Assembly (NCBI GenBank): GCA_028289425.1
Contig: JANQPL010000017.1
Location: 62,001-126,000 of the forward strand
DNA length: 64,000 nucleotides
From: Alphaproteobacteria bacterium
GTDB taxonomy: Bacteria; Pseudomonadota; Alphaproteobacteria; JANQMY01
Reading direction: 5' to 3'
Position 1 is the stretch's first letter. Every line of letters starts with the position of its first letter. Below the pieces are notes generated by a model. It did no database searches and had not been told where the DNA came from. It saw only the letters and a program-made list of their open reading frames with translations. Made by a program: the position numbers and the translations under genes. Positions 10,689 through 29,485 of this stretch are shown here, in pieces.

Positions 10689-10846
10689 AACCCAACTGTT
10701 CCAATTCCGTAATTGTGGAAGGGGTGCAACTTGCTTGACTCAATCTAAGACTCTTCCTACCAGGTTTTTGACATTGATGCGCGGTATATGTGAACCGGGC
10801 TCTCTTGCGGGCGGTGCATCTACAACGAACTTCAGGCCGGAAGTGT

Positions 10847-11854
10847 ATGAGCGCAGACAAATGCGAAATCGATTTGGTGACCGGCGGTGCGGGCTTTATC
10901 GGGAGCCATCTGGTTGATCGCCTCCTCTCTTTGGGGCGAAGGGTTCGCGTCATCGACAATTTTTCCAACGGGTCACTGCGAAACCTTGAACACCACGCGG
11001 GCAATCACGCACTCGAAGTCGCAAAGTTTGACATTCGTGAACAAGAAGGCCTGGAAGCCTATTTTGCAGACGTCGGGCGCGTATTTCACTTGGCAGCGCT
11101 TGCAGACATTGTTCCCTCAATCACGAATCCGACGGACTACTTTCGGGCCAACGTGGACGGCACCTTTCATGTGGTTCAAGCTGCGGTGAAGGCACAAGTC
11201 GAGCGGTTCGTCTATTCGGCTTCGTCCAGCTGCTACGGAATTCCCGACAGTTACCCCACGCCAGAATCCGCTGAAATCCGCCCTCAATATCCTTATGCTC
11301 TGACAAAGTATCTGGGCGAACAGTTGGTGCTTCATTGGGCACATGTCTACAAATTGCCGGCCATATCCTTGCGGTTCTTCAATGTGTTCGGACCGCGCGC
11401 CCGCACAGGCGGTACGTATGGCGCTGTATTTGGTGTGTTCCTCGCCCAGCATATTCGTGGCGAACCGCTAACGATTGTCGGAGATGGCACCCAAACCCGT
11501 GATTTCACTTTTGTTGACGATGTGGTGGATGCGATCCTGACCGCAGCAGAGGCGCGGCAAGTGGGCGCGGTCTACAATGTTGGTAGCGGCGGGCACTATA
11601 GTGTGAATGAGCTCGTCCGACTGATCGGTGCTGAAAAGACGGTTGGAATTCCGAAGCGACCAGGGGAACCGGACTGCACCTTTGCTGACGTGAGCAAGAT
11701 CCAGCGTGAACTTGGATGGTCGGCAAATACTCCGTTTGAAGATGGAGTTAAAATCATGATGAAGAACATCGACTACTGGAAAGACGCACCCTTGTGGACA
11801 CCTGAGCGAATCACCGAGGCGACCAAAGACTGGTTCGCACTTCTGAGCGACTAG
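10847..11854 (+). CDS. NAD-dependent epimerase/dehydratase (extended SDR)
   Basis: A 335-residue enzyme using ATG 10847, which is preceded by ggaag; the track start at 10790 adds 19 residues without family character. The N-terminus gives the NAD-binding TGGAGFIGSHLVDRLL, then VRVIDNFSNG, DIREQEGLEAYF and FHLAALADI. The catalytic set is SASSSCYG with YALTK (YxxxK). Later VGDGTQTRDFTFVDDVV and YNVGSG match nucleotide-sugar epimerases of the GalE/UDP-glucuronate 4-epimerase type. It acts on NDP-sugars in the cytoplasm, most likely a C4 epimerisation. It sits alone between the cupin/radical SAM pair and the HldE-like operon, with 365 bases to the next gene. Confidence 0.87.
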   Translation: MSADKCEIDLVTGGAGFIGSHLVDRLLSLGRRVRVIDNFSNGSLRNLEHHAGNHALEVAKFDIREQEGLEAYFADVGRVFHLAALADIVPSITNPTDYFRANVDGTFHVVQAAVKAQVERFVYSASSSCYGIPDSYPTPESAEIRPQYPYALTKYLGEQLVLHWAHVYKLPAISLRFFNVFGPRARTGGTYGAVFGVFLAQHIRGEPLTIVGDGTQTRDFTFVDDVVDAILTAAEARQVGAVYNVGSGGHYSVNELVRLIGAEKTVGIPKRPGEPDCTFADVSKIQRELGWSANTPFEDGVKIMMKNIDYWKDAPLWTPERITEATKDWFALLSD

Positions 11855-12219
11855 GTTTCAGTGTTCACCCGTTTGGATTGTTTTCATAAGTCGCAGAACA
11901 TTATGCGGAATATTCATTCCGTGCATTGATGAAAAATCGCCTGTAGTTGCGACCCGAATCCCTCTAAACTAGAATTGAGTGATTCGAAGCGAGTTCGGGT
12001 TGTCTTTACTCGTCAGATACAAGCAGATGTTGATTTTTTGTTCGACGGTTCGGAATTGTGATGGGCCACCAAGTAGGACCGGACGTGACGGGTGAGAAGA
12101 TCAAGCACTTTGCCCAAAAGGTTGATCTGCAGACGAACATTGTGTGGTTGGCTGGAACAGAGCAGTCACGTGTAACAGGCAGATGGGCAGTTAGCACTGT
12201 CGATTGAGGGGTTGTATTG
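11855..12219 (+). other. Intergenic stretch with a short ORF candidate and a hairpin
   Basis: A 365-base gap before the nucleotidyltransferase-kinase gene. A perfect six-base inverted repeat, cggaat (11906-11911) and attccg (11916-11921), lies 50 bases after the epimerase stop; it has no T-tract, so it is a weak terminator at best. From 12058 (GTG) or 12061 (ATG) an open frame of about 48 codons runs to 12207 and contains GPDVTGEKIKHFA and NIVWLAGTEQ. This faintly recalls the donor-site region of GT4 glycosyltransferases and could be a gene remnant, but similarity is too weak to name. The promoter of the following operon is expected here. Confidence 0.35.
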
Positions 12220-13815
12220 ATGTTACGCGAGACAAGCGCAATGCGGCAGACGCTTGAGGCGTCTGAGGGGCATGCGCGGGGTGGCTCGAAAATCGTCACC
12301 CTTGAAGAGCTTGCGGCCATCGCCAATCGTTTGCGCACGGAGAACAGGCAGATTGTGTTGTGCCATGGTTGTTTTGACCTGGTACATGTTGGACACTTGA
12401 GGCATTTCAAAGCGGCACGTGATCATGGAGACGCTCTGGTTGTCACCATCACTGCCGATAATTTCGTCAACAAAGGCCCCGACAGACCCGTCTTTTCCGA
12501 TTTGCTGAGAAGTGAATTTCTTGCGAGCTTAGAGATGGTCGACTATGTCGCTGTCGTCCATGAGCCGAGTGCAAGACCGGCAATCGAAGCTGTCCGGCCG
12601 GCTTTTTATGCCAAAGGAAGCGAGTATTCGCAGGCCGACGACGATATCACTGGCAAAATCGTTCACGAAAAGGATTTGGTGGAGAAATTCGGGGGCACAC
12701 TGATCTTCACCGATGACATAACTTATAGTTCTTCAAATCTGCTCAACAAGCACTTTGCGGTGCGGAATCCGGCTGCGCGGGACTATCTAGAACAGAAGCG
12801 TGGATCAAATTTCGAGGATCTGCTGACCCATTTCTTGGACAGAATTGCGGATATGAAGGTCCTCCTCGTCGGCGAAACGATCATTGATCGTTACGTCTAT
12901 GTGGCGCCAATGGGGAAAGCCTCCAAAGAAAACATTATTGCGACGCTTCATCAGGATGAAGAGGCTTTTGCGGGGGGCGCTGTTGCCGCGGCCAACCACT
13001 TGGCAGCAATCTGTCCAAACGTGGAATTGGTGACCTCATTGGGCGATGCCAATTGCGGCGAAAACTACGAGCAATTGGTGCGGGACCAACTGCATGATGC
13101 GGTGGTTCCCACATTCCTTTACAAAACGGATGCGCCCACTGTCGAAAAGACCCGGTTCGTGGAACCGACTCATGTGCGCAAACTGTTTGAAGTATATCGC
13201 ATGGATGACAGCCGCTTGGAGCAAGCTCAGCAGGCTGAACTGCACACCCTGCTGTCAGAAAGATTTAGTGACGTTGACCTAGTCGTCGCGTGTGATTTTG
13301 GGCACGGACTGATCTCAAAGCAAACTGCAGATTTGCTTGGAAAAGAGAGCCCATTCCTCGCCATAAACGTCCAGTCCAACGCGGGTAATATCGGATATAA
13401 TCTAGTCCCGAAATATCACCGTGCGGACTTTTTGTGTATTGACGCCATGGAAGCGAGATTGGCCGCCCGTGAAAAACACGCCGATGTGCCCACACTTGTC
13501 GAACAACACTTGCCGAGCATTATTGATTGCGACCGTTTCATCGTGACTCACGGCAAGTCAGGGTGCTTCACTTCCTCTGAAGATCGTCCCGAAGCATCAC
13601 ACATTCCCGCCTTCAGCGACACGGCAATCGACACGGTTGGGGCGGGGGACGCGTTTTTTGTAATGGCATCTTCGATGGTAGCAGCCGGTGCAGATTGTCC
13701 CACAGCAGGCTTCCTTGGAAATGTGGCCGGCGCGATCAAAATCGGAATCGTAGGACACCGTCGATACATCAACAGGCTTGAGATCCTTAGAAGCGTGAAG
13801 ACCCTACTCAAATGA
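12220..13815 (+). CDS. Fused nucleotidyltransferase-PfkB kinase, HldE-like with domains in reverse order
   Basis: A 531-residue bifunctional protein from ATG 12220 with gagggg upstream; the track begins one codon earlier at a TTG. Residues 45-175 are a cytidylyltransferase-type domain: VLCHGCFDLVHVGHLRHF carries the HxGH nucleotide-binding motif. Residues 210-530 are a PfkB/ribokinase domain: VLLVGETIIDRYVYV at its start and DTVGAGDAFF near residue 472, holding the catalytic Asp. In E. coli HldE the order is kinase first, nucleotidyltransferase second; here it is inverted. By analogy it would phosphorylate a sugar phosphate at C1 and activate it to a nucleotide sugar. It overlaps the GmhA-like gene by ATGA, supporting a dedicated heptose-like pathway. 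The true sugar is unknown. Confidence 0.85.
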   Translation: MLRETSAMRQTLEASEGHARGGSKIVTLEELAAIANRLRTENRQIVLCHGCFDLVHVGHLRHFKAARDHGDALVVTITADNFVNKGPDRPVFSDLLRSEFLASLEMVDYVAVVHEPSARPAIEAVRPAFYAKGSEYSQADDDITGKIVHEKDLVEKFGGTLIFTDDITYSSSNLLNKHFAVRNPAARDYLEQKRGSNFEDLLTHFLDRIADMKVLLVGETIIDRYVYVAPMGKASKENIIATLHQDEEAFAGGAVAAANHLAAICPNVELVTSLGDANCGENYEQLVRDQLHDAVVPTFLYKTDAPTVEKTRFVEPTHVRKLFEVYRMDDSRLEQAQQAELHTLLSERFSDVDLVVACDFGHGLISKQTADLLGKESPFLAINVQSNAGNIGYNLVPKYHRADFLCIDAMEARLAAREKHADVPTLVEQHLPSIIDCDRFIVTHGKSGCFTSSEDRPEASHIPAFSDTAIDTVGAGDAFFVMASSMVAAGADCPTAGFLGNVAGAIKIGIVGHRRYINRLEILRSVKTLLK

Positions 13816-14444
13816 CCAAAGAGATTTCGCCGGACAGCTTTGCTGGTAGCATTCCCAACGCTTTATATTCGTCGTACGCATCAACGCTGGAGCGTGTCCT
13901 TGTCGGTGCCATCGCGACGAATGGGGCGGGCGAACACTTTTCGATGGAATCCGCCATCCGAGCGATGGGGCACGCCATGCGAGAAGCGCATGATCGAGGC
14001 AATCAACTTTTTTTTGTTGGTAACGGCGGCAGTGCGGGAATCTGTAGTCACATGGCTACGGACTACAGTAAGAATGGCGGCATTCGATCGACTTCGCTAA
14101 ATGACGGCGCAACACTGACCTGTCTCGGTAACGACTATGGCTATGAGCATGTGTTCCAGAAACAAATTGAATGGCACGCGCGTTCGGGTGACATCATCAT
14201 AACCATCAGCAGTTCCGGAATGTCGCAGAACATTTTGAATGCGGCGGACCAGGGCCGGTCAAGCGGCTGCACCGTGTTTACGCTGAGTGGATTTAGTCAG
14301 GATAACCCATTGCGTTCCAAGGGCGACTTAAACGTATATCTCGACAGTACCGAATACGGTTTTGTTGAAGTTGGGCACTTAGCCGTTCTACATGCGGTTC
14401 TGGATATCCAGATGGGTTGGGTGCCGCCTGCAAGGCCCAATTGA
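13812..14444 (+). CDS. SIS-domain sugar-phosphate isomerase, GmhA-like
   Basis: A 210-residue single SIS domain. FFVGNGGSAGICSHMATDYSKNG gives the phosphate-binding GNGGSA loop of phosphoheptose isomerases, and GDIIITISSSGMSQNILNAA gives the SSSG loop near residue 135. The C-terminal EVGHLAVLHAVLD matches the GmhA helix with its conserved Glu and His. GmhA converts sedoheptulose 7-phosphate to D-glycero-D-manno-heptose 7-phosphate. Translation is coupled to the upstream fusion kinase by a four-base ATGA overlap, the arrangement expected for consecutive steps. Substrate could differ from heptose, since relatives act on other ketose phosphates. Confidence 0.84.
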   Translation: MTKEISPDSFAGSIPNALYSSYASTLERVLVGAIATNGAGEHFSMESAIRAMGHAMREAHDRGNQLFFVGNGGSAGICSHMATDYSKNGGIRSTSLNDGATLTCLGNDYGYEHVFQKQIEWHARSGDIIITISSSGMSQNILNAADQGRSSGCTVFTLSGFSQDNPLRSKGDLNVYLDSTEYGFVEVGHLAVLHAVLDIQMGWVPPARPN

Positions 14445-14487: not shown

Positions 14488-15504
14488 ATGACATCGGCAA
14501 GACACGTCTTGGTCACCGGTGGTGCCGGTTACGTTGGCAGCTTACTCGTGCCCAGATTGCTCGATCTAGGGCATGCTGTAACAGTATTGGATCTGTTTTT
14601 GTACGGAGCAGATGTATTCGAGGATGTGTCGCAAAATCAAAACCTGGTTCAGGTGAGAGGGGACATTCGTAATCCCCTGGCCGTGAAAACCGCATTGACC
14701 AACTGCGATTCAGTAATCCACCTGGCATGCATTTCAAACGATCCGTCCTATGAGCTTGACCCAGGGCTTGGAAAGTCAATCAACCATGATTGTTTTCGGC
14801 CGCTTGTGCGAGCTGCTAAGGAGGCGGGTGTTGAGCGATTTATCTATGCTTCCTCCTCTAGCGTTTATGGCGTGAAAGACGAGGATGAGGTCACGGAGGA
14901 ACTGCCGCTCGAACCTTTGACCGACTATTCAAAATTCAAGGCGGTCTGCGAAAACGTCCTTGAAGAGGAAAGGGCGCCGGGGTTCGCGGCGTTGACTATT
15001 CGACCTTCCACTGTATGTGGGTACGCGAAGCGTCAACGATTAGACGTTATCGTCAATATACTGACTAATCACGCTGTGATAAACCGCAAGATAAAGGTAT
15101 TCGGAGGCGAACAGCTTCGTCCCAATATCCACATTCATGACATGTGCCGGGTATACGAGAAGGCATTGGAGTGGCCTGCTGACGCAATCGACGGCAAAGT
15201 TTACAATGTGGGCTATGGCAATGCGACTGTCATGGATCTTGCCAAAATGGTGAAGCGCGTTGTTGAAGGCGATAATGAGTTTGGCGGCGAAATAGAGCTT
15301 GAAGTCGTGCCGACGGACGACAACCGCTCATATAAGGTATCGTCAAAGAAGATTGCGGAGGAATTGGATTTCACGCCGGAAAAATCGATCGAAGATGCCG
15401 TTAGAGATTTGTTGAACGCCTTCAAGGAAGGCCGTCTTGCCGACACGATGAATGACAGCCGTTACTTCAATATCCGAACGATGCAAGAATGCCAGCTGAG
15501 GTGA
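14488..15504 (+). CDS. NAD-dependent sugar epimerase/dehydratase (SDR)
   Basis: A 338-residue extended SDR. It opens with HVLVTGGAGYVGSLLVPRLL and VTVLDLFLYG, has VIHLACISNDPSYELDP, the catalytic YASSSSVYG and YSKFK (YxxxK), and a substrate-domain VFGGEQLRPNIHIHDMCR. The SNDPSYE stretch and overall shape resemble the SDR subgroup that also includes the gene at 28291, often found beside heptose and C-methyl sugar genes. It follows the GmhA-like gene by 43 bases in the same operon. Likely reaction is epimerisation, reduction or dehydration of the nucleotide sugar made by the fusion enzyme. Confidence 0.86.
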   Translation: MTSARHVLVTGGAGYVGSLLVPRLLDLGHAVTVLDLFLYGADVFEDVSQNQNLVQVRGDIRNPLAVKTALTNCDSVIHLACISNDPSYELDPGLGKSINHDCFRPLVRAAKEAGVERFIYASSSSVYGVKDEDEVTEELPLEPLTDYSKFKAVCENVLEEERAPGFAALTIRPSTVCGYAKRQRLDVIVNILTNHAVINRKIKVFGGEQLRPNIHIHDMCRVYEKALEWPADAIDGKVYNVGYGNATVMDLAKMVKRVVEGDNEFGGEIELEVVPTDDNRSYKVSSKKIAEELDFTPEKSIEDAVRDLLNAFKEGRLADTMNDSRYFNIRTMQECQLR

Positions 15505-15556: not shown

Positions 15557-16612
15557 ATGAAAGCGCCCGTTGGTATCGGCATCATTGGCGGCGGGATGAT
15601 CGCTCAGATCGCGCATCTACCATTTTATCTTTCGGACGACAGGTGTGACGTCCGGTGTATTGCCGAAGAGCGACCTTCCCTGAAGGCCGTTTTGGCTGAT
15701 TCTGTCGGTCGACAGAAAGTGGTCGAAGACCATGAGGAGTTGTTGTCTGACCCTGAGATATCAGCCGTAATTGTGTCGGCACCACGACCGGCTACGGGAA
15801 GCTTGACGCTCGCGTGTCTCCAGGCCGGAAAGCATGTGCTCGCCGAAAAACCGATGGCTCACACGACAGAGCAAGCAAGGCAATTGGTCGGCGCTGCCAA
15901 GGCCAAAGAGCTTGTTTACGCGGTCGGGTACATGAAGCGATTTGATCCAGGTCTCGAAGCTGCAAGATCGCTGTTCGAAGAATTTGTAGCAGATGGTCGT
16001 CTCGGTCCTCTCCTATCTGCAAGGTTCTACGATTATTCTAAATCCTATGCGGTGCCGCCTCCGCCTCACGCGCGCCCCAAGGAAAGTCGGAAAAAGAGAT
16101 TCAGCTCTTGGCCGACTGCGCCTGCCTGGTTGCCCGAAGAGTTAAGCGACGAATATGCGTGGTTTGTGAACGCAGGAAGCCATGATGTAAATCTCCTGAA
16201 CTGGTTTTTCCCGGAAGGCGTGTCGTTGATATCCGCATTTGGCTCTGGCAAAGGCGTCGTTTCGGCGATGTTCGAAGGGCGCGGATGCCCCATACACCTG
16301 GACGTGACCAAGACCGAGGCGGGCAGATGGCTTGAAGGCGCAGAGTTCCTGTTTGAGCGGGGACGGCTCGCAGTTTCAATTCCATCGCCCATGTCGGTCG
16401 GGGAAGTATCTCGGGTCATTGTGGATGATCTGTCAGGTGAAGGAACCGAAATTACAAAACCAGAAAAGGCGGTTTGGTCATTCGAGGCTCAGGCGCGCGG
16501 ATTTCTCGATGTTTTGACGAATGGAACATCGCCGAGAACAAGCGGCGTCGATGGACTCGCCGATCTCGAACTGATCGAAACAATGTGGAAGGACATTGTG
16601 AGCAAGTCATGA
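15557..16612 (+). CDS. Gfo/Idh/MocA family oxidoreductase
   Basis: A 351-residue NAD(P)-dependent sugar oxidoreductase. VGIGIIGGGMIAQIAHLPF is the dinucleotide-binding loop, and KHVLAEKPMAHTTEQA holds the family EKP signature with its catalytic Lys. The C-terminal alpha/beta substrate domain contains NAGSHDVNLLNWFF, matching the conserved GxHxxD position. Members oxidise or reduce a ring hydroxyl or keto group of nucleotide sugars such as 3-keto intermediates. It overlaps the next gene, a C-methyltransferase, by ATGA. That pairing suggests production or reduction of a keto sugar, because C-methyltransferases of this family need a neighbouring keto group. Confidence 0.87.
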   Translation: MKAPVGIGIIGGGMIAQIAHLPFYLSDDRCDVRCIAEERPSLKAVLADSVGRQKVVEDHEELLSDPEISAVIVSAPRPATGSLTLACLQAGKHVLAEKPMAHTTEQARQLVGAAKAKELVYAVGYMKRFDPGLEAARSLFEEFVADGRLGPLLSARFYDYSKSYAVPPPPHARPKESRKKRFSSWPTAPAWLPEELSDEYAWFVNAGSHDVNLLNWFFPEGVSLISAFGSGKGVVSAMFEGRGCPIHLDVTKTEAGRWLEGAEFLFERGRLAVSIPSPMSVGEVSRVIVDDLSGEGTEITKPEKAVWSFEAQARGFLDVLTNGTSPRTSGVDGLADLELIETMWKDIVSKS

Positions 16613-17901
16613 AAGCGGCTTTACAGGTGCAACCTGACATTCCATCAGTGGTCAGACGGACTGAATGCCGTCTGTGCGGCAGCACCGACCTCATCTGTTC
16701 TGTGCCGCTTGCCCAGGTGCCTATCGCCTCTCCAAATGTGGGCAAAATTGAGGATTATTCAGGGGGCCGACTTGACCAAATCGTTGCGCCCCTGGACAAT
16801 TACCTGTGTGGCTCATGCGGTCTCAATCAACTCGTCCACGTGGTCGATCCGTCCTTGATTTATCGTGATTATCTCTATCGGACGTCCGTATCAATGGGAC
16901 TGTCGGACCATTTCAAAGATCTGGCGAATGGCGTTGTGGAAACGCTTCAACTGCCCGTGGGCAGTTTTGTCGTCGAATTTGGCAGCAATGACGGCACCCT
17001 GCTGAGGCACTTTAAGAACGCCGGCATGAAGGTGCAGGGCATCGATCCCGCGCAAGCAATTGCGTCCGAAGCGACCGCGGCAGCAATACCTACGATCGCT
17101 GATTTTTTTTCTGAATCAATTGCGAAGCAGATCGTGGCAGATTCGGGAGAGGCCGATGTTATCGTTTCGAATAATGCGATGGCGAACATCGACTCCCTTG
17201 ATCAGATCTTGAATGGTGTTCGTGCTCTTCTGAAGGCTGACGGTGTTTTTGTATTCGAGACCCAGTACGCCCTCGATGTGTTTGAGAAATTCTTGCTGGA
17301 CGTAATTTATCACGAACACATTTCTACATTTTCGGTGAAACCGGTGGTCGAGGCTTTTGCACGGTATGGTCTTGAGGTTTTTGATGCGCAGAGAATTCCG
17401 ACGAAAGGGGGATCAATACGATTTTGGGTTCAGCACAAAGACGGCGGGCGCATCAGATCACCCGAAGTCATGCGGCTCATTCGACTAGAACATGAAGCGG
17501 GTCTTTACGATCCCGCATATCACGAGCAGTTCGCGGCCAAGGTATTGAACCTAAAGCAGCAGGTTCACGCAATCGCGGAAGCCGCCCAGCACAGCGGCCG
17601 TCTGATTGCGGGTTACGGAACGTCAGTAGGTTGCGCTGCGTTAATCCACCAGCTTGAGCTTGAACAATGGTTAGACTGTTTGTACGACGATACACCGTTT
17701 AAGTCTGTGATCGAAGGACCGGGATATCGATTGCCAGTCCACAAGGGTGAGAATCTCAGCACGCAGAACCCTGCAATCGTCTTCGTTTTGGCCTGGCGAT
17801 ACGCGAAACCGATAATGGCAAAACAAAAATCCTACCTCAAATCCGGCGGCCGCTTTATCGTGCCCCTGCCGGATTTGTCCGTGCTTTCTGGGTGTGCTTA
17901 G
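16609..17901 (+). CDS. Zinc-site SAM methyltransferase, NDP-sugar C-methyltransferase type
   Basis: A 430-residue protein from ATG 16609, which overlaps the stop of the oxidoreductase; the track start lies inside that gene. The zinc site is CRLCGSTD with CGSCGLNQL near residues 16-70. The SAM domain shows FVVEFGSNDGTLLRHF and VIVSNNAMANIDSL. The catalytic-type motif VIYHEHISTFSV is complete (Y-H-E-H). The C-terminal domain has RLIAGYGTSVGCAALIHQL. This is the closest match in the window to bona fide NDP-hexose 3-C-methyltransferases (TylCIII, NovU type). It ends the operon that begins at 12220 and stops five bases before a convergent methyltransferase gene. Confidence 0.87.
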   Translation: MKAALQVQPDIPSVVRRTECRLCGSTDLICSVPLAQVPIASPNVGKIEDYSGGRLDQIVAPLDNYLCGSCGLNQLVHVVDPSLIYRDYLYRTSVSMGLSDHFKDLANGVVETLQLPVGSFVVEFGSNDGTLLRHFKNAGMKVQGIDPAQAIASEATAAAIPTIADFFSESIAKQIVADSGEADVIVSNNAMANIDSLDQILNGVRALLKADGVFVFETQYALDVFEKFLLDVIYHEHISTFSVKPVVEAFARYGLEVFDAQRIPTKGGSIRFWVQHKDGGRIRSPEVMRLIRLEHEAGLYDPAYHEQFAAKVLNLKQQVHAIAEAAQHSGRLIAGYGTSVGCAALIHQLELEQWLDCLYDDTPFKSVIEGPGYRLPVHKGENLSTQNPAIVFVLAWRYAKPIMAKQKSYLKSGGRFIVPLPDLSVLSGCA

Positions 17902-17906
17902 TGCGT

Positions 17907-18572
17907 TCACTCCATGAAGATGAACTCGTAGTCTCCGGTGTAGCCGAAACGGTTGTAGAGCCAAATCCACTCGTCCGTATCGAGAAAGGATTCGGCGGTC
18001 AGTGCCCAACATTGCAAGTTGAAAAGCTCCTGTTCATCCCGATAGCTCTCGACCATGATGTATTTTTTCCGTCCGACGCGCTCAATTTCTCGAACGGCAC
18101 ACTCCAGCTCCATCAGTCGAAGATTGTGAAGACACCCAAGTGAGATGACGAGGTCGAAGGTATCTGCGGGCCATGGATAGGGCTGTTCGGCGCGGTGCCG
18201 GATCAAGTGCTTTCTAACGTCTTCCTTAGCGTCTTCAAGACCGTGCCGGGAAATATCAAAACCGGATACCTCAAGGCCAGGCACAAGCTTCAGCATCTCG
18301 TGAAGTAGGTAAGCTTTGCCGCAGCCCACGTCCAATACTTTGGAGCCCTCGCTCAAATCATAAGTCTCAATCAGAGCCTGGGCGACCGGGGTCCAGCGGC
18401 CGGGAATGTACCTATACCCACCGTATCCGTATCGCCGATCGCCATCCCAGTAGTCGGCTTCATAGAATTTGGCCTTTTTCATGCAATGAACTTTGTCGTC
18501 GACCATGCGCGCCAAATAATCCCGGCTGGTCATTTGATGCAGTGGCGTCACGATGTTCATCAGTCGTCCCAT
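17907..18572 (-). CDS. Class I SAM-dependent methyltransferase
   Basis: A 221-residue methyltransferase. KVLDVGCGKAYLLHEML is motif I, VSGFDISRHGLEDA motif II, and FDLVISLGCLHNLRLMEL the motif IV region. An unusual Tyr/Gly-rich leader (DGDRRYGYGGYRYIPGRW) precedes it. It is the last gene of a minus-strand run and overlaps the LIC12192-type gene by 13 bases. Close coupling suggests it modifies the carbohydrate made by that module. O- or N-methylation cannot be distinguished. Confidence 0.8.
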   Translation of the reverse strand: MGRLMNIVTPLHQMTSRDYLARMVDDKVHCMKKAKFYEADYWDGDRRYGYGGYRYIPGRWTPVAQALIETYDLSEGSKVLDVGCGKAYLLHEMLKLVPGLEVSGFDISRHGLEDAKEDVRKHLIRHRAEQPYPWPADTFDLVISLGCLHNLRLMELECAVREIERVGRKKYIMVESYRDEQELFNLQCWALTAESFLDTDEWIWLYNRFGYTGDYEFIFME

Positions 18573-19065: not shown

Positions 19066-19887
19066 CTACTCGCTAAAGCCTTCTGGCAGACGATAGTCCA
19101 AACCAATGCGGCTCGCTGGCCGCAAATTGACGAATTCAAAAAATTCTCCCAGCTTCTTGTCTGCATAGGGAGACAGAGCACTTTTGAATCGGCAATTAAG
19201 GCTCCACCGGGTTTCGTCCTCGATGTTGATGCGATTTCCATGCATCACGGTTTGTGTGAATATGAGGATGGATCCAAAATCGATTTTGAGAAACTCTAAG
19301 TCACCAGAGACGCTTGCATACAAGTCTTCTGCGGAACCGTTTTGGTGGTCCGACATCACCATTTGATAAGAGCGATCGCTGCCAATGGGCAATATGTACA
19401 TGCTCTTAGTCTTGAAGCAGTCTACAAGAGGTACCCACACCACCACTTCGAAAGGCGAGTCACCGTCCCAGACGTCCGCGTGGATCGGCAGCAGAGAACT
19501 CGAGTCGTTGGGTAATTGAACACTAAGACCAAGGCCGCGCTGCATGGCGAGTTCATTGCCCACCAGCGTGTGTAGCGCTTCGAGAACTAGGGAGTAATAG
19601 GTGGGCCGGACCCAGGGGGTGCTGCGCAAGGTTTGAATCACTTCAAGCCGCAAGTCATTCAATGACTCAGCACCGACGTAAAGGTGGATGTTGTTCAGAA
19701 GGTCTTCCGGCGACTTCGTCGGCGATATGTTGAGCGTCTCAGAAACGGTGTCTGCTACCAGTTCCCGAATGGCATGAAGCCCTTCTGAATTCTCGGTGGG
19801 CAGAATTACATATCCCTTACCCAGAAAATCTGAGACCAGCGGCGATTCTTCAAGTGCTTCAAAGCAATCGGGGCGGGAGATGTTCAT
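19066..19887 (-). CDS. Sporadic carbohydrate cluster 2OG-Fe(II) oxygenase
   Basis: A 273-residue protein from ATG 19887, which overlaps the upstream transketolase stop as TGATG; the track start is a GTG one codon earlier. The double-stranded beta-helix iron site is visible: HADVWDGDSPFEVVVW provides His-x-Asp, and FTQTVMHGNRIN with ETRWSLNCRFKS provides the distal His and the 2-oxoglutarate-binding Arg. This fits the oxygenase that accompanies LIC12192 proteins (TIGR04324, from memory). It would hydroxylate or oxidise a sugar or sugar nucleotide using O2 and 2-oxoglutarate. Confidence 0.84.
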   Translation of the reverse strand: MNISRPDCFEALEESPLVSDFLGKGYVILPTENSEGLHAIRELVADTVSETLNISPTKSPEDLLNNIHLYVGAESLNDLRLEVIQTLRSTPWVRPTYYSLVLEALHTLVGNELAMQRGLGLSVQLPNDSSSLLPIHADVWDGDSPFEVVVWVPLVDCFKTKSMYILPIGSDRSYQMVMSDHQNGSAEDLYASVSGDLEFLKIDFGSILIFTQTVMHGNRINIEDETRWSLNCRFKSALSPYADKKLGEFFEFVNLRPASRIGLDYRLPEGFSE

Positions 19888-20828
19888 CACGCCACATTCT
19901 TCTGTGCCACATCGTTCAAAATCCGATTAGTGATCTGATCCGGCTGAAGCCCATTCAGCGACAGCAAATCATCTTGCACGCCGTAGTTTGTTGCGAAAGC
20001 GTCTGGTAGACCCAGGCGGACGAGTGCCGGCATGCCGCTTCTCTCGGCGAACAGTTCAGCGACGGCACTTCCCAGGCCGCCTATTCGAGTGTGCTCTTCC
20101 ACGGACACCACAAGACTCGCGTGATGTGTTCTTTCGATGATGAGTTCTTCGTCCAGCGGTTTGATTGTGTGTATGTGAATAACCTCAGAGTCGATCCCCT
20201 GTCTCGAAAGGAGTTTGCTTGCAGAAAGGCATCGGTTGGTCATGACACCACAGGAAACGAACACAACAGCGCCTGTGCCCGCCGCTTCGCGCATGACGAT
20301 CCCTTTGCCGATTTCAAATCCTCTTCGATCGTGGCTGACAATAGGGTCGCCCCCCTTGCCCAAGCGGATGTAGATCGGATGCGGCCAATCGAGGGTCGCC
20401 TTCATAAGGCGCACCATCTCGTCAGAGTCCGCAACGGCGGTTACGGTCATATTCGGAAGCGCCCGCATGATGGCGATGTCTTCTACGGCGAGATGGGTGG
20501 GTCCCAAAGGCGCGTACACTACGCCGCCGCCATTTCCGATAAATCTCACTGGAAGGTCGTGCAGGCAAAGGTCCAAGGCGACCTGCTCATAACTGCGGCG
20601 CGTAATGAATGTGGCGATTGTGTTTACGAACGGCACAAAACCATCCATGGCCATGCCGGCGGCCATTCCGATCACGTTGGCTTCGGTAACGCCCTCCATG
20701 AAGTAGCGGGCGGGCATTTCTTCTTTCATTTCTTGAAGGAGGCCGGGGCTTAGGTCGGACCCGATGAAGACCACACGCGGATCTTGCTGCGCCAATTGAT
20801 GGACCATGTTGAGGCAGGTCTTTCTCAT
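19887..20828 (-). CDS. Transketolase-like protein, C-terminal (pyrimidine-binding) subunit
   Basis: A 313-residue protein equal to the second half of transketolase/DXPS enzymes. RYFMEGVTEANVIGMAAGMA carries the Glu that activates thiamine diphosphate, GGGVVYAPLGPTHLAVEDIA is the conserved Pyr-domain region, and the last 110 residues form the transketolase C-terminal domain (VVSVEEHTRIGGLGSAVAEL). It is joined to the N-terminal subunit gene by ATGA, so the two form a heteromeric enzyme. It would transfer a two-carbon ketol unit or form a related ThDP intermediate in sugar synthesis. Confidence 0.88.
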   Translation of the reverse strand: MRKTCLNMVHQLAQQDPRVVFIGSDLSPGLLQEMKEEMPARYFMEGVTEANVIGMAAGMAMDGFVPFVNTIATFITRRSYEQVALDLCLHDLPVRFIGNGGGVVYAPLGPTHLAVEDIAIMRALPNMTVTAVADSDEMVRLMKATLDWPHPIYIRLGKGGDPIVSHDRRGFEIGKGIVMREAAGTGAVVFVSCGVMTNRCLSASKLLSRQGIDSEVIHIHTIKPLDEELIIERTHHASLVVSVEEHTRIGGLGSAVAELFAERSGMPALVRLGLPDAFATNYGVQDDLLSLNGLQPDQITNRILNDVAQKNVA

Positions 20829-21685
20829 GCAGGCGTCCTCAGCGCTTCGTTCATCTCGGTCAGTATCTCGGGAGAGAATTTAGAATGGTGGTGCCATTTC
20901 GGATTGTTCTCGGCGAACGGGATCCCTTTTCCCTTGACCGTGTGGCAAATCACGGCGGTCGGTCTGTTGGAGGCAATGGGGACAGATTTAAATACGTCGG
21001 ACAACGCGCTCATGTCGTGCCCATCCACATCCACGGCTTTGAATCCAAAACTTGTCCATTTGTCGAGGAGCGGTTCAAGCGTCTGAATCTCTTCCGTCGG
21101 GCCTGCCGATTGGATCTTGTTGTAGTCGACAATGGCGCAGAGATTTGACAGCTTGTGCTTTCCTGCACACATCGCGGCCTCCCAGACGGACCCTTCATTG
21201 ATTTCGCCGTCGCCCATCACCACGAAGACTCTGCTGTTGCGGTTTTGCATGCGCGCCGCCAGCGCCATACCCACGCCAATAGAAAGTCCATGACCGAGTG
21301 CACCGGTCGACGCCTCCACGCCCGGTACTTTGCCGCGCTCCGGATGACCGCCCAAGATTCCATCAACATGGCAAAAGCGATCCAGCTCTTCCGCGTCGAA
21401 AAATCCTTTGTCCGCCAAGAGGGCGTAGAGTGCCAGACAACCATGCCCTTTCGACAAGATACAGCGATCACGTTCCGGCCAACCGGGCTGGTCCGGTTGG
21501 AACCGCAAGACCTCATCGTAGAGCGATCGTAGAATCTCAATGAGCGACATTGACGAGCCGACGTGACCGCGATTGCCGCCCACCAGCCCCCGCACGACCA
21601 ATTGGCGCAAATATAATGACCGTTCATCGAGAAGTGCCGGTTGGACGGACGAAGAAGCGATACCAGTCAAATTCATGCTCCGCAT
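20825..21685 (-). CDS. Transketolase-like protein, N-terminal (ThDP-binding) subunit
   Basis: A 286-residue protein equal to the first half of transketolase. NRGHVGSSMSLIEILRSLYD is the early conserved region, CILSKGHGCLALYALL follows, and the thiamine diphosphate motif runs from MGDGEINEGSVWEAAM to VDYNKIQSAG. HTVKGKGIPFAENNPKWHHH matches the end of the domain. ATG at 21685 is used; a second ATG lies three codons later. First gene of the module transketolase N, transketolase C, oxygenase, LIC12192 protein, methyltransferase. Being separate from central metabolism genes, it is likely a dedicated biosynthetic transketolase. Confidence 0.88.
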   Translation of the reverse strand: MRSMNLTGIASSSVQPALLDERSLYLRQLVVRGLVGGNRGHVGSSMSLIEILRSLYDEVLRFQPDQPGWPERDRCILSKGHGCLALYALLADKGFFDAEELDRFCHVDGILGGHPERGKVPGVEASTGALGHGLSIGVGMALAARMQNRNSRVFVVMGDGEINEGSVWEAAMCAGKHKLSNLCAIVDYNKIQSAGPTEEIQTLEPLLDKWTSFGFKAVDVDGHDMSALSDVFKSVPIASNRPTAVICHTVKGKGIPFAENNPKWHHHSKFSPEILTEMNEALRTPA

Positions 21686-21812: not shown

Positions 21813-22451
21813 TCAATGCGCCGATCCAAACAGAGTCGCTTCGATATCTTGCCACGAGTTATGGGCCACCAAGGGGGTGCTAACAGGTCCAGGCCGGCTA
21901 TTTGCAAACCAGATGGGCGTTACGCCAGAAGGGAAATCCCTGTGCGAAAGGACTTCCGGCAAATCGTCCACGAAGAATTGACAGCCCAGAGATCGAATGC
22001 GGTCAATCTTGGCATCGCGTGTTTCTTCAAAATGCACGTCCGCCGGTCGAAGACCATACCCGTCAAGGTCAAAAAATTGGTGATCTTCAAGCCAGTCACG
22101 GGCGGCATCCCATAGATTGATCTTGTGTTTGTCGAAATGTCCGCGCTTAGTCTTGTGGCTCACAATGCTGATTGTGCATCCAGCCGATCGGGCCCTGAGC
22201 AGACAGTTGCCGGCGCCGGCAAACAACTGGGCCCGCTTGATAAATCGGCCGTATACCTGCCCCTGTAGCCGCATCCATACCTTTTCCCCTTGTGCCGAGT
22301 TTGTCAGATACGATTTCGTTGCGACTTTTGAGGAAAGCGCAGTGCCCTCGGGAACCAAGCCAATTTCAACAGCTACCTGGCCGAACACACGATCGTAGTC
22401 GATCAGGGTGTTGTCGAGATCAATTCCAATGTGAAAGGGGGCCGGTTTCAC
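21813..22451 (-). CDS. HAD-superfamily hydrolase, probable sugar phosphatase
   Basis: A 212-residue HAD protein beginning at a GTG. IGIDLDNTLIDYDRVFG is motif I with the nucleophile Asp and DxDxT, ISIVSHKTKRG is motif II with Ser, and FFVDDLPEVL is motif IV with two Asp. A helical cap of about 90 residues lies between motifs I and II. Within this locus it could be the phosphatase that removes the 7-phosphate of a heptose 1,7-bisphosphate (the GmhB step), but it is not close to GmhB in motif spacing that I can judge. It lies between the transketolase unit and another methyltransferase, all on the minus strand. Confidence 0.75.
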   Translation of the reverse strand: MKPAPFHIGIDLDNTLIDYDRVFGQVAVEIGLVPEGTALSSKVATKSYLTNSAQGEKVWMRLQGQVYGRFIKRAQLFAGAGNCLLRARSAGCTISIVSHKTKRGHFDKHKINLWDAARDWLEDHQFFDLDGYGLRPADVHFEETRDAKIDRIRSLGCQFFVDDLPEVLSHRDFPSGVTPIWFANSRPGPVSTPLVAHNSWQDIEATLFGSAH

Positions 22452-24578: not shown

Positions 24579-25790
24579 TTAGACGATCAATAGCTGCGCA
24601 GTCACACCAAGGGATTTCAATTCTGCTCGAATCTCGTTCTCGTAGGTGGCGTTCATCAAATAGATCACGTCGGGTTTGATCCCCTTCAAAGCCCATGGCG
24701 GAACAATCTCCTGACCCGTGCCAGGGATGAACTTGCCGTGTTTGCGGGGGCTAATGTCCACTGCATAGGGCAGGCGATCTCGCTCGCCGTCGCCTTGAGT
24801 GAGATTCAGAAATGTAACCCCCTTTGAACCGGCGCCCCAAATGGCGGCGGTCTTGTTCTGCAAAGCAAGCTGACGTCGTGTTTCTTTCCAAAACTCGCAC
24901 TTTCTGTGGAAGCTCTCCGAAAACCGATCTGCGAGTTCGGTCACATTGGAGAGTGCTGAGCCGTTAGCGGTGTCGGACTTGGTGGCCTGAGATTTTTGTG
25001 AAGTGAGTTGTAGGTCAATTGACAAGAACTGCCGATCATAAGCCGGCTCAACGCGCAAAACCTCAAAGCCGCACCGCTTGAAAAGATGAGAAAGCGACCC
25101 GGACCAAAAGTAGGAACAATGTTCGTAGATCAGGTCCCAAATGCCGAGATCTTCCAGCGTGAACAGACCGTTGGGCACTTCGAAATAGGCAATCGCACCT
25201 GGATTGTGTTTGAGCGCTTGCTTCACTGGCGTGATAAATGTAGCCGGCTCAGGCACATGTTCCAGAACGTGACGGCAGCAAAAAAAATCGGCGGAATGGA
25301 CTTCAAATTCCGGACTGAAGTTTTCAGGAAACACTTGAACACAGTCCGGCAGTTCTGCGCTGGACCGGTCGAAGCTTTGATCGAATCCCAATCCGGCATT
25401 GTTTCCCAAGCGGCATATCTCCGCGAGAAACTCTGCCTGACCACACCCCAGTTCGATGATCGTTCGTTCGCGCAAATCATAGGTATCGATTAGGCGAAGG
25501 GCTAGGGTTCGCGCATATGTTCTGAAATGTTCAGAAAAGTGAAGTGATGTCTCGTAGTTTTCGCCATACTCCAACAGCTTGGGTTGAAAATCGCTATTGA
25601 AGCAATGTCCGCACACGTCGCAAAAGGTAAGGTCGATATTCCCCTTCGGTGCGCCGAGCGCTGAGGCACGATCAAGCCACAGATTGTTGCACACAACCGG
25701 GACATTGCTCATTTGCAACAAGCGTTTGGTGTGCCGGGAAAAGCAAACCGGGCAAGTCGCGGTTTGCGTATTTAAGGATTCTGTGCTCAC
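24579..25790 (-). CDS. Zinc-site SAM methyltransferase, C-methyltransferase type (third of a tandem set)
   Basis: A 403-residue protein with a GTG start. The zinc site is CPVCFSRHTK and CDVCGHCF. TIIELGCGQAEFLAEICRLG is SAM motif I and DFFCCRHVLEHVPEP motif IV. The catalytic-type motif reads LIYEHCSYFW, one residue shorter than the standard YHEH. The C-terminal domain has TAAIWGAGSKGVTFLNL. It is the last gene of a four-gene minus-strand operon and is clearly related to the adjacent 25803 gene, sharing CGQ.EFL, EHCSYF and WG.GSK motifs, so a tandem duplication followed by divergence is likely. Confidence 0.83.
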   Translation of the reverse strand: MSTESLNTQTATCPVCFSRHTKRLLQMSNVPVVCNNLWLDRASALGAPKGNIDLTFCDVCGHCFNSDFQPKLLEYGENYETSLHFSEHFRTYARTLALRLIDTYDLRERTIIELGCGQAEFLAEICRLGNNAGLGFDQSFDRSSAELPDCVQVFPENFSPEFEVHSADFFCCRHVLEHVPEPATFITPVKQALKHNPGAIAYFEVPNGLFTLEDLGIWDLIYEHCSYFWSGSLSHLFKRCGFEVLRVEPAYDRQFLSIDLQLTSQKSQATKSDTANGSALSNVTELADRFSESFHRKCEFWKETRRQLALQNKTAAIWGAGSKGVTFLNLTQGDGERDRLPYAVDISPRKHGKFIPGTGQEIVPPWALKGIKPDVIYLMNATYENEIRAELKSLGVTAQLLIV

Positions 25791-25802
25791 AGAAATCAGG
25801 CC

Positions 25803-27029
25803 CTAGGATGCCAAGGCTTCTTCAGACGGCATGTAATGGGTTATGGGCAGCACTTCGGGAGAAAGTCCACGCTCTGACAGCGTTGATTGAATTTCGTCAG
25901 TATAGACTGGGTTCATCACAATCACCAGATCTGGATTGAGCGCCACCAGCGTATCTGGACCAACAACTGGATGGCCCGTTCCCGGCAGAAAGGTGTTCCA
26001 CTTGTGCGGGTTAATGTCGACCGCCGCCTCGATACTGGCACCCGTCTCGATCGTTGTCAGAAAAGACACTGCTTTCGATCCGCCTCCCCATAGGACGGCC
26101 TTTTGTTTTTTGTTTGCCACGGCATTCAGTCTGTTCGACCAGGCGTCTCTAAACTGAGCCACCGTATTACGGAAACTCTGTATACGATGTGTGCTTAATG
26201 GCTCTTGTTTTGACGGAGCGACAGTTGGTTCGCCCGCTATATCTGCTTCGGCAACAAGATACTGATCGTCATAAACGGGATAAATATCAGTGACGTCGAA
26301 TTGCGCAAGGCTCAAGAGGCGACGAAGCGCCGCCGGAGTGAAATAAGAACAGTGTTCGTAGTAGACGTCCCAAAAAGCCTTTTCGTCCAAGATGTAGTCG
26401 GCATTGGGTATCATAAAGAAGAGAGATGCATTCTGCTTTTCGCCGATTGCACGCCGAATACCGTGCATGAACGAAAGCGTGTTCGGAATGTGCTCCAACG
26501 TCATTTTGCAGCAGAATAGGTCAGCTTGTTCTGTCTGGTACGCGTCGGAATAGAAATCGGCGACAAAAGACGCACCAGTGCTGCGTTCCACATCGGCGCG
26601 AGAAGGATCGTAGGCCGGGTCGAATCCAAGGCCTTCGTTGCCGCCCAAGTCGCAAAGCAGTGACAAGAACTCCCCCTGTCCGCAACCTATTTCGATGACC
26701 CTTTTTTTCTTTAGGCCGAAGCGGTCGATCACATGCTGTGCGAGTTTGTGGTGGAATGTATTGAATGTCTCAGAATATGCCTGCGTCGCTTCGTAACCAG
26801 CGCCATATGCTTCCAGATGCGGATCGAACTGCGTATTCCAAATGAAATCGCAAGATGTGCAGTGCGCAAGCGTGATGTTTCCCTTCTGAAATGCTTTCGC
26901 CTTGTCGCTTTCATCGAAAAGCAGAACACTGTGAGTCGGAACAGAGGGGACTTCGTAAAACACCGAGCCAATGCCGTCGGCGCAATTGGGGCATACCAAT
27001 CCCGTCTGATTGTTTTGTTCGGTGCTCAT
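25803..27029 (-). CDS. Zinc-site SAM methyltransferase, C-methyltransferase type (second of a tandem set)
   Basis: A 408-residue protein from ATG 27029. The zinc site is CPNCADGIG and HCTSCDFIW. RVIEIGCGQGEFLSLLCDLG is motif I, ADLFCCKMTLEHIPNTL motif IV, VYYEHCSYF the catalytic-type motif and KAVLWGGGSKAVSFLTT the start of the C-terminal domain. It lies 12 bases before the related gene at 24579 and 15 bases after the one at 27045, so all are in one transcript. As with its relatives, methyl transfer to carbon of a keto nucleotide sugar is the best model, but the divergence of the motif leaves the chemistry open. Confidence 0.83.
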   Translation of the reverse strand: MSTEQNNQTGLVCPNCADGIGSVFYEVPSVPTHSVLLFDESDKAKAFQKGNITLAHCTSCDFIWNTQFDPHLEAYGAGYEATQAYSETFNTFHHKLAQHVIDRFGLKKKRVIEIGCGQGEFLSLLCDLGGNEGLGFDPAYDPSRADVERSTGASFVADFYSDAYQTEQADLFCCKMTLEHIPNTLSFMHGIRRAIGEKQNASLFFMIPNADYILDEKAFWDVYYEHCSYFTPAALRRLLSLAQFDVTDIYPVYDDQYLVAEADIAGEPTVAPSKQEPLSTHRIQSFRNTVAQFRDAWSNRLNAVANKKQKAVLWGGGSKAVSFLTTIETGASIEAAVDINPHKWNTFLPGTGHPVVGPDTLVALNPDLVIVMNPVYTDEIQSTLSERGLSPEVLPITHYMPSEEALAS

Positions 27030-27044
27030 AAAATCGCCCCACGC

Positions 27045-28298
27045 TCAAGTAACAACGTGCGGTTCCGGAACGGGAATAATGAACTTACCACCACGGCGTC
27101 TGAACTCGTCTTGTTGGTTGATGATTTCGTCGGCAAAATTCCAAGCAAGAATGAGAAGATAGTCCGGCACTTCGTTGTCAATTCTTTCAGGTCCACAGAT
27201 CGGCAGCGCATTTCCACTCATAAAGCGTCCCTGCTTGTGGGGATTGCGGTCGGCAATAAAGTCCAGATGATTGGCGTCTATTCCGCAATAGCTCATCAGA
27301 GTGTTTGCTTTTGCGGCAGCCCCATAACCGGCAATCCTTTTCTCATCGCGTTTGATGTCCTCAAGGATATCCATCAGGGCCGTTTTCAAGCGCTCGACGC
27401 GATTCCCAAATTGTTCGTAGTAATCTGCTTTCGTAACGCCAAGCTCGGATTCGTACTTCAGGAAATGTCGGACACTTTCCCTTAGGTTCTCCTTAGGCTC
27501 AACGAACAGCCGTAAGGAACCGCCATGAATATCGGTTTTGACGACGCGATTTAGATGCAGTCCGTGGCGACGGAACAGAGACACCAGTGCCGTCACCGAG
27601 AAGTAGCACAAATGTTGATGATAGATTGTGTCGAACTCGAGCTTCTCAACAAGGTCCACCAAGTAAGGCGCTTCAATGACTGCGACGCCGTCGTCTTTCA
27701 AGACGTGTTGAATCCCTGCAACAAAGCCATTCAAATCTGCGACATGTGCGAGAACGTTGTTCGCCAGGAATACGTCCGCAGACTGACCATCGAGTACTAG
27801 TTTTTCGGCCAAGTCACTAGTGAAGAATGTTTTTAGTGTGGGAATCCCGTCTGCGATCGCTTTGTCGGCTGGGCCTTCGGCTGGGTCCACTCCCAACACC
27901 TTGATGCCTTGCTCCACAAAATGGCGCAGCATATATCCGTCATTGCTGGCCGCTTCGACCACCAGATGATCTGTCCCAAGATTTCTTTCTTCGATGAGCG
28001 CCTTAGCGCTGGTGCCGAAATGCTTCATCAGGTAGGGAGAAACCGATGAATAGTAGGGGTAGTCGTTGCAGAACAAGACGTCCGGCTCAACAGTTGCCAG
28101 GATTTGCACCAAGCTGCAGTTTTCGCAAAAGACCAGATCAAGGGGGGCTTTGGGTTCTGGAGCAGTCAATGACTCCTGTGTCAACAACCGATCGGCAAGA
28201 GGCGTCTCTCCAAGATCCAAGATCTTTGTAAGACGTGCCTCGCCGCAAGAGCGGCAACCATCAATGATCTCAACAGGTGCCCCGATACCCTTACGCAT
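27045..28298 (-). CDS. Zinc-site SAM methyltransferase, NDP-hexose C-methyltransferase type
   Basis: A 417-residue protein. [21 protein letters not shown] near residue 14 is very typical of sugar C-methyltransferases, with the second zinc pair in [27 protein letters not shown] is the SAM loop, [15 protein letters not shown] the catalytic-type motif (Y-H-Q-H, Gln for Glu), and [19 protein letters not shown] starts the C-terminal domain. It overlaps the epimerase gene by 8 bases and has cgaggtg upstream. Together with the SDR it probably makes one C-methyl sugar. Confidence 0.86.
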
Positions 28299-29343
28299 CG
28301 CACACCTCGGATTGTTTCAGGCGCAGATCAGTGCCGATCATACCTTCCTCAATTTTGCTGCGCAGGTATTTGATACGGCTGAATGTGGCACCCTCAAAAT
28401 CCTCTAGGCGCAACCCCTCGGAAACGTACGTTTCATATAGTTCGGTAATCCCTCGTTCGGCTGTCCAGCCGGCAGAAAACGATGGAAGCTGCCGCACAAT
28501 CTTGGAGCAATCGACGCGATAATTCCGTGTGTCCGGTCCTGCGTCCGGCGCAAAATCAACTTCGCAGTCAGGAACGATTTGAGCGACCAAATCCGCGATT
28601 TCCCGAATGCGAAAATTCTCATCATTACGGCCCACATTGAAAGCTTCATTGTGAATCGTTTCGCTGGGAGATTCTAGAACAGCTATGAATGCGCGAGCAA
28701 TGTCTGCGATGTGGACGATGGGGCGCCATGGGCTGCCATCGCTCTTTAGGTAGACTTGGTGCGTCGTAAATGCCCAGGCGGTCAGATTGTTTACCACCAG
28801 ATCGAAGCGCAGCCGCGGCGACACGCCATATGCTGTCGCATTTCGTAGATAGGTTGGCGAGAAATTATCGTCGGCAAGGAGCGCGAGCTCTTGTTCGGCC
28901 AGCACCTTCGACTGTCCATAGGGCGTCACCGGGTTGAACTCGCTTTGCTCGTCAAGGAGATCATTACCTGCGGCGCCGTAAGTGCTGCAAGAGGACGAAA
29001 ACACAAATCGCTGAACGCCGGCCTGTTTGGCTAGTTTGGCGAGCTTCACGGTCGCGCGGTAGTTGATGTCGAGAGTCAATTCGGGGTTCAAGTCGCCAAG
29101 GGGATCATTCGACAAGCCTGCTAAATGCAGAACGGCGTCAAATCCGCTTACGTCCGATTTATCCACGTCGCGAACATCCTTCTTTATCGAAGGCAGCTCC
29201 GTTGCCGCACCGGTATACACGCAAGGCTCAAACAAGCCGCTGTCCAGGCCCACCACCTCATAGCCGGACTGAACTAACATTGGTGCCAATATCGAGCCGA
29301 TATAGCCTTGGTGGCCTGTAAGAAGTACGCGCATGGGGTCCAT
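28291..29343 (-). CDS. NAD-dependent epimerase/dehydratase (SDR)
   Basis: A 350-residue enzyme if ATG 29343 is used, which has agaaag upstream; the track begins at a TTG, and a further ATG at 29334 starts directly at [10 protein letters not shown]. The NAD loop is [17 protein letters not shown], followed by [28 protein letters not shown] and YGQSK (YxxxK). The SNDP segment is shared with the SDR at 14488, so they are probably paralogues. First gene of a minus-strand operon with three zinc-site methyltransferases. It likely prepares or finishes the nucleotide sugar they act on. Confidence 0.86.
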
Positions 29344-29485
29344 TCGTCTTTCTGGTCTCAACAGACAGTATCATCAATGCGGGAGGTTGCTGTCCCGTAA
29401 AACCTGACCTCGGGTCTCAACAAGATTTGGCAGTTGCCGCATTTTGCGACAGCCTCCAACCGGCGACATTCACTCGGTTTCGTTG

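Follow-up and report, generated by a model that had tools for sequence, protein, structure and literature searches.

Why would a genome that already encodes HldE, the kinase/nucleotidyltransferase of the ADP-heptose route, carry a second enzyme with the same two domains in reverse order? The question arises from a gene in a 64,000-nucleotide stretch of an alphaproteobacterial genome (assembly GCA_028289425.1, contig JANQPL010000017.1, positions 62,001 to 126,000), the whole of which we call the window. The gene runs on the forward strand from a TTG at 12217 or an ATG at 12220 to 13815, and in the encoded protein of 531-532 aa, a nucleotidyltransferase domain precedes a PfkB-type kinase domain. 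We find that this inverted fusion is widespread and lies within a conserved multi-gene module, rather than being a local curiosity. Judged from its sequence and genomic setting, the protein is probably a functional enzyme with both sugar-phosphate kinase and nucleotidyltransferase activity, serving a nucleotide-sugar pathway of its own alongside that of ADP-heptose. Its domains, its conserved catalytic motifs, its operon linkage, and its phylogenetic separation from HldE are shown directly.

An inverted fusion distinct from HldE

The predicted domain order agrees with a Pfam search, in which CTP_transf_like matches residues 48-158 (E 4e-12; 47 bits against a gathering cut-off of 21) and PfkB matches residues 213-509 (E 1e-18; 68.1 bits against 25.8). 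The catalytic motif HVGH, an instance of HxGH, lies where the original prediction placed it, near residue 56 (56-59), while GAGD is present at 474-477 rather than near 472. Canonical HldE was said to have the opposite order, and all 26 HldE entries in the loci we compared do read kinase then nucleotidyltransferase, whereas every full-length member of the two inverted families described below reads nucleotidyltransferase then kinase. This uniformity rules out a chance or misread domain order.

Family A consists of full-length inverted fusions with 42-51% identity to that of the window and occurs in 28 of the 385 alphaproteobacterial genomes covered by a class-wide search, including the genome under study. 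A second inverted family, B, with 28-33% identity, is found in approximately 25 further genomes of the same search. Within family A, the HxGH, K-G-x-x-R-P, SSS, and GAGD motifs are conserved or invariant. A frame that stays open at this level of divergence in 28 genomes, with its catalytic residues conserved, makes it extremely improbable that the gene is a degenerate or chance fusion of open reading frames without function. A phylum-wide draw of 399 genomes gave matches at E <= 1e-40 in 49, almost all being full-length fusions and many lying outside the class. Full-length inverted fusions also appear in IMG/VR on approximately 30 predicted viral contigs (among L131-L164), usually with a SIS gene next to them, and the one contig examined for phage hallmark genes (L146) has a portal-protein match within the same 13 kb.

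The genome under study is 99.75% complete and carries, on another contig, a canonical kinase-nucleotidyltransferase HldE that scores above both domain cut-offs and is followed by HldD. In NCBIfam, the fusion comes closest to the models of the HldE domains and its SIS partner to that of GmhA, with every score well short of cut-off; for the fusion, the HldE scores are 103 bits against 345 (TIGR02198), 100 against 181.5 (TIGR02199), and 152 against 521 (NF008454). In both the kinase and the nucleotidyltransferase trees, canonical HldE forms a single clade with 100% support, with families A and B on the other side, and family B is itself a clade in each tree. Forcing family A together with the HldE of its own genome is rejected by the approximately unbiased (AU) test for the kinase (p 0.015) and for the nucleotidyltransferase (p 0.026). 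The divergence is also visible in motifs: the nucleotidyltransferase domains of both inverted families have CHGxFD and SSS where HldE mostly has TNGxFD and STT, and both also contain a short additional segment bearing a conserved Glu. On the sugar side of the kinase, the HldE segments RISPEAPxPVV and VDPKxxDF have family-specific replacements in A and in B.

These results bear first on the explanation that the fusion is an ADP-heptose isozyme, that is, an HldE that was circularly permuted long ago and has continued to make ADP-glycero-manno-heptose, as a heptose supply for an O-antigen or capsule. The nearest characterised families are indeed HldE and GmhA, which speaks for such an origin, but the position of both domains outside the canonical clade, the AU tests, and the altered sugar-side segments argue against it, and we regard this explanation as unlikely. 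A simple permutation nested inside HldE is likewise not supported by the trees. The original prediction had suggested that the fusion was assembled independently; the branching of both domains away from HldE, which it proposed to test, is borne out, and the separate lineage stands, while it is suggested rather than proven that the domains were joined independently and not through an ancient circular permutation of HldE. Two arrangements fit repeated joining of a nucleotidyltransferase upstream of a kinase. One is the pair of separate nucleotidyltransferase and kinase genes in Prochlorococcus phage P-SSM2, and the other is a standalone CHG-type nucleotidyltransferase on a Pseudomonas aeruginosa plasmid (L124:3826-4308), where a class III aminotransferase and a GH65 gene belong to the same cluster.

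The partner isomerase and the thiamine-diphosphate enzymes

The gene for the SIS isomerase (SIS_2; positions 13812 to 14444, forward strand) overlaps the stop of the fusion, confirming the predicted ATGA. Its GmhA-like product scores 78 bits with TIGR00441 against a cut-off of 209 (209.45), a strict threshold that no protein exceeds in any of 80 genomes. Scores with this model fall into three tiers, approximately 160-206 bits for GmhA, 78-120 for the isomerases of family A, and 40-61 for those of family B, each tier having its own kinase-nucleotidyltransferase. The two isomerase subfamilies are correspondingly linked to the fusions: SIS_A is found in 26 of 32 family A loci and SIS_B in 8 of 11 family B loci, with neither in 21 canonical HldE loci.

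In B. pseudomallei GmhA, the zinc ligands are H64, E68, Q175, and H183, and the Q175E variant is inactive (PMC5705639). When aligned at these positions, the isomerase of the window has H-D-E-H instead of H-E-Q-H. The same pattern is seen in 21 of 26 cellular family A partners (the exceptions differ at the last position), in 23 of 25 viral partners (the exceptions differ at the second), and in all 8 family B partners, whereas 9 alphaproteobacterial GmhAs have H-E-Q-(H or Q). In 6 of these 9 GmhAs (L193, L196-L198, L201, and L202), the equivalent of H183, a ligand described as fully conserved, is Gln, and this ligand is therefore not strict. The Glu at the position of Q175 is a further argument against an ADP-heptose isozyme, as is the additional canonical GmhA present in most family A genomes.

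The operons of family B (L049-L059) are more favourable to that explanation. They contain a GmhB-like HAD-IIIA phosphatase and, in 9 of 11 loci, a transaldolase above cut-off, a combination that fits sedoheptulose 7-phosphate. They also encode a Gfo/Idh/MocA protein and a UDP-glucose-dehydrogenase-like enzyme, and on this gene content, their product might be an activated hepturonic-type sugar.

Another companion of the inverted fusion is a thiamine-diphosphate enzyme, mostly a split transketolase, which is present in 28 of 32 family A loci, 9 of 11 family B loci, and 24 of 33 viral loci, compared to none of the 21 canonical HldE loci and none of 20 control loci around surface-polysaccharide initiating transferases; the profiles used were built from fusion loci, which biases matches towards these and may miss distant enzymes in the controls. 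The control loci rule out the association as a general trait of surface-polysaccharide islands. A transketolase-type half is the usual form in cellular family A loci (27/32), while the viral loci mostly have an E1-type or acetolactate-synthase-type enzyme, together with a radical SAM gene.

The module and a candidate route

Downstream of the fusion, family A loci carry genes for the SIS isomerase, a short-chain dehydrogenase/reductase (SDR), a HAD-like phosphatase, an APH-like kinase, the split transketolase, TIGR04324, TIGR04323, and a methyltransferase. The window contains the complete set, but in scattered blocks between 866 and 22451. On the forward strand, SDRs of the NAD-dependent epimerase/dehydratase type lie at 10790 to 11854 (module gene c8, frequently the gene immediately 5' of the fusion) and 14488 to 15504 (c1). 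These are followed by a Gfo/Idh/MocA oxidoreductase (15557 to 16612), which among module loci occurs only here, in L001, and in L074, and a C-methyltransferase (Methyltransf_13/14; 16474 to 17901), which follows the oxidoreductase both here and in L001. The reverse strand encodes an S-adenosylmethionine-dependent methyltransferase (c6; 17907 to 18572), the sporadic carbohydrate cluster protein TIGR04323 (18560 to 19042; 127 bits, cut-off 55), the sporadic carbohydrate cluster 2OG-Fe(II) oxygenase TIGR04324 (19066 to 19890; 296 bits, cut-off 150), and the C-terminal (c5; 19887 to 20828) and N-terminal (c2; 20825 to 21685) halves of the transketolase. Also on this strand are the HAD-like phosphatase (c7; 21813 to 22451), in which the DxDNT, SH, K, and DD motifs are invariant among 8 members, and the APH-like phosphotransferase (c3; 866 to 1906), which adjoins the HAD gene in related loci.

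The HAD and APH genes occur in 20 of 32 family A loci. The HAD protein has no Pfam or NCBIfam match and is therefore not assigned to the HAD-IIIA (GmhB) family, and its best matches among solved structures are weak ones to phosphoserine phosphatase. TIGR04324 is found above cut-off in 18 of 28 family A genomes, 7 of 22 genomes with family B only, and 1 of 30 others, the last group being hand-picked. Much of the sporadic carbohydrate module is also seen on two predicted viral contigs (L172 and L173), which have a nucleotidyltransferase-only gene along with SIS, SDRs, the split transketolase, TIGR04324, and TIGR04323. Elsewhere in the window, three tandem methyltransferase-like genes lie on the reverse strand at 24579-28298, the last of which is similar to the C-methyltransferase at 16474-17901, and beside them is a second c1-type SDR at 28291-29361.

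From this gene content, we infer the reactions of the route, their order, and its sugar and nucleotide. The SIS isomerase would convert a 2-ketose phosphate to an aldose phosphate, the PfkB domain would phosphorylate its C-1, and the HAD phosphatase (21813-22451) would take off the terminal phosphate. The N-terminal domain of the fusion would then join the sugar 1-phosphate to a nucleotide, and tailoring by the SDRs, the TIGR04324 oxygenase, and the methyltransferases may prepare the product for a surface glycan. As for the split transketolase, it would build the ketose, our leading proposal for transketolase loci, or else add a two-carbon unit later. Isomerase, PfkB kinase, HAD phosphatase, nucleotidyltransferase, and SDR provide a counterpart for each step towards ADP-heptose, though the parts are non-orthologous or divergent, and they are accompanied by a dedicated enzyme for forming carbon-carbon bonds. 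The simplest reading is a parallel route that activates another ketose-derived sugar. The original prediction that the product may not be ADP-heptose is reasonable from sequence, because canonical HldE-HldD coexists with the module, the sugar-side segments and the isomerase metal site are changed, and a thiamine-diphosphate enzyme is present; the sugar is likely heptose-like and probably not ADP-D-glycero-D-manno-heptose.

Several points weigh against a parallel route. The TIGR00441 search finds no GmhA-family protein in the genome under study besides the isomerase of the module, which could therefore also serve the housekeeping heptose route; together with the canonical HldE-HldD of this genome, this would suit an ADP-heptose isozyme. 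Several other family A genomes likewise have only the A-type isomerase. Some HldE-bearing genomes without the fusion also lack any GmhA match, however, and the gap is thus not special to this genome. The viral loci compared contain neither HAD nor APH genes. The Fisher p values for the thiamine-diphosphate link (4e-11 against canonical HldE loci and 8e-11 against the control loci) overstate independence, as the loci are related by descent. Finally, some loci have an E1-type (PDH-E1-like) or acetolactate-synthase-type enzyme in place of transketolase, from which an isomerisable ketose is not expected, and the transketolase may therefore be a tailoring enzyme.

This last point leads to a different explanation, in which the activated sugar made by the fusion is an ordinary or heptose-like one, a keto intermediate then receives a two-carbon branch from the thiamine-diphosphate enzyme, and the end product is a branched octose-type sugar. 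YerE adds such a branch for yersiniose. That transketolase, PDH-E1-like, and acetolactate-synthase-like enzymes are interchangeable across loci is consistent with branching and favours it where the latter two occur, and SDRs able to make a keto sugar are present in 27 of 32 family A loci. On the other hand, cellular loci usually have the split transketolase, and the transaldolase of family B favours skeleton building upstream of the isomerase. We consider this explanation quite improbable. Bradyrhizose was rejected as a known product, since transketolase goes unmentioned in its paper, where nothing beyond an 11-gene cluster with a dTDP-glucose 4,6-dehydratase is named.

Returning to the parallel route, we tentatively suggest that the family A module may specify an undescribed nucleotide-sugar pathway for a C7-C8 long-chain or branched sugar, equipped with an isomerase, an inverted kinase-nucleotidyltransferase, and a thiamine-diphosphate enzyme for carbon-carbon bonds, all specific to it. 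The pathway would be common to many Pseudomonadota and to phages, in which it would serve as auxiliary genes altering their own or host glycans. If the parallel route holds, a common alphaproteobacterial surface-sugar pathway, also carried by phages, yields a product that has not yet been described.

Comparison with known systems

Heptose-type activation is usually equated with HldE and GmhA. A literature search on inverted HldE, TIGR04323/TIGR04324, and phage-borne versions found nothing relevant, with most subscription-only papers lying outside the search. Homologues of the fusion are annotated just as "PfkB family carbohydrate kinase". Examples are those of Azospirillum oryzae (WP_149200362.1, 48% identity) and Solidesulfovibrio carbinolicus (WP_129356083.1, 40% identity), which are the same fusion and, as in the window, have SIS and thiamine-diphosphate enzyme genes nearby.

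Compared to HldE (NF008454, TIGR02198, and TIGR02199), the fusion of the window has the same two domain families, the same expected pairing of activities, and its best-scoring models for both domains, but it differs in its reversed order, its separate clades, its CHGxFD/SSS/extra-segment nucleotidyltransferase, and its sugar-side kinase segments. Similarly, the isomerase shares a single SIS domain with its nearest family, GmhA, the sedoheptulose 7-phosphate isomerase (TIGR00441), and keeps 2 of 4 zinc ligands, but it has Asp for Glu68 and Glu for Gln175 (B. pseudomallei numbering) and belongs to its own subfamily tied to the fusion. In P-SSM2 (PSSM2_309-311), a nucleotidyltransferase, a kinase, and an annotated phosphoheptose isomerase follow in the same order. 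There, however, the first two are separate short open reading frames that branch on the HldE side, and the third gives no SIS-domain alignment in our analysis. The remaining counterpart is the sporadic carbohydrate cluster, an NCBIfam name given after LIC12192. Its TIGR04323 and TIGR04324 proteins are both in the module of the window above cut-off, whereas the NCBIfam names give no function and no mention of the fusion. The module gives these unexplained proteins a concrete, testable metabolic setting.
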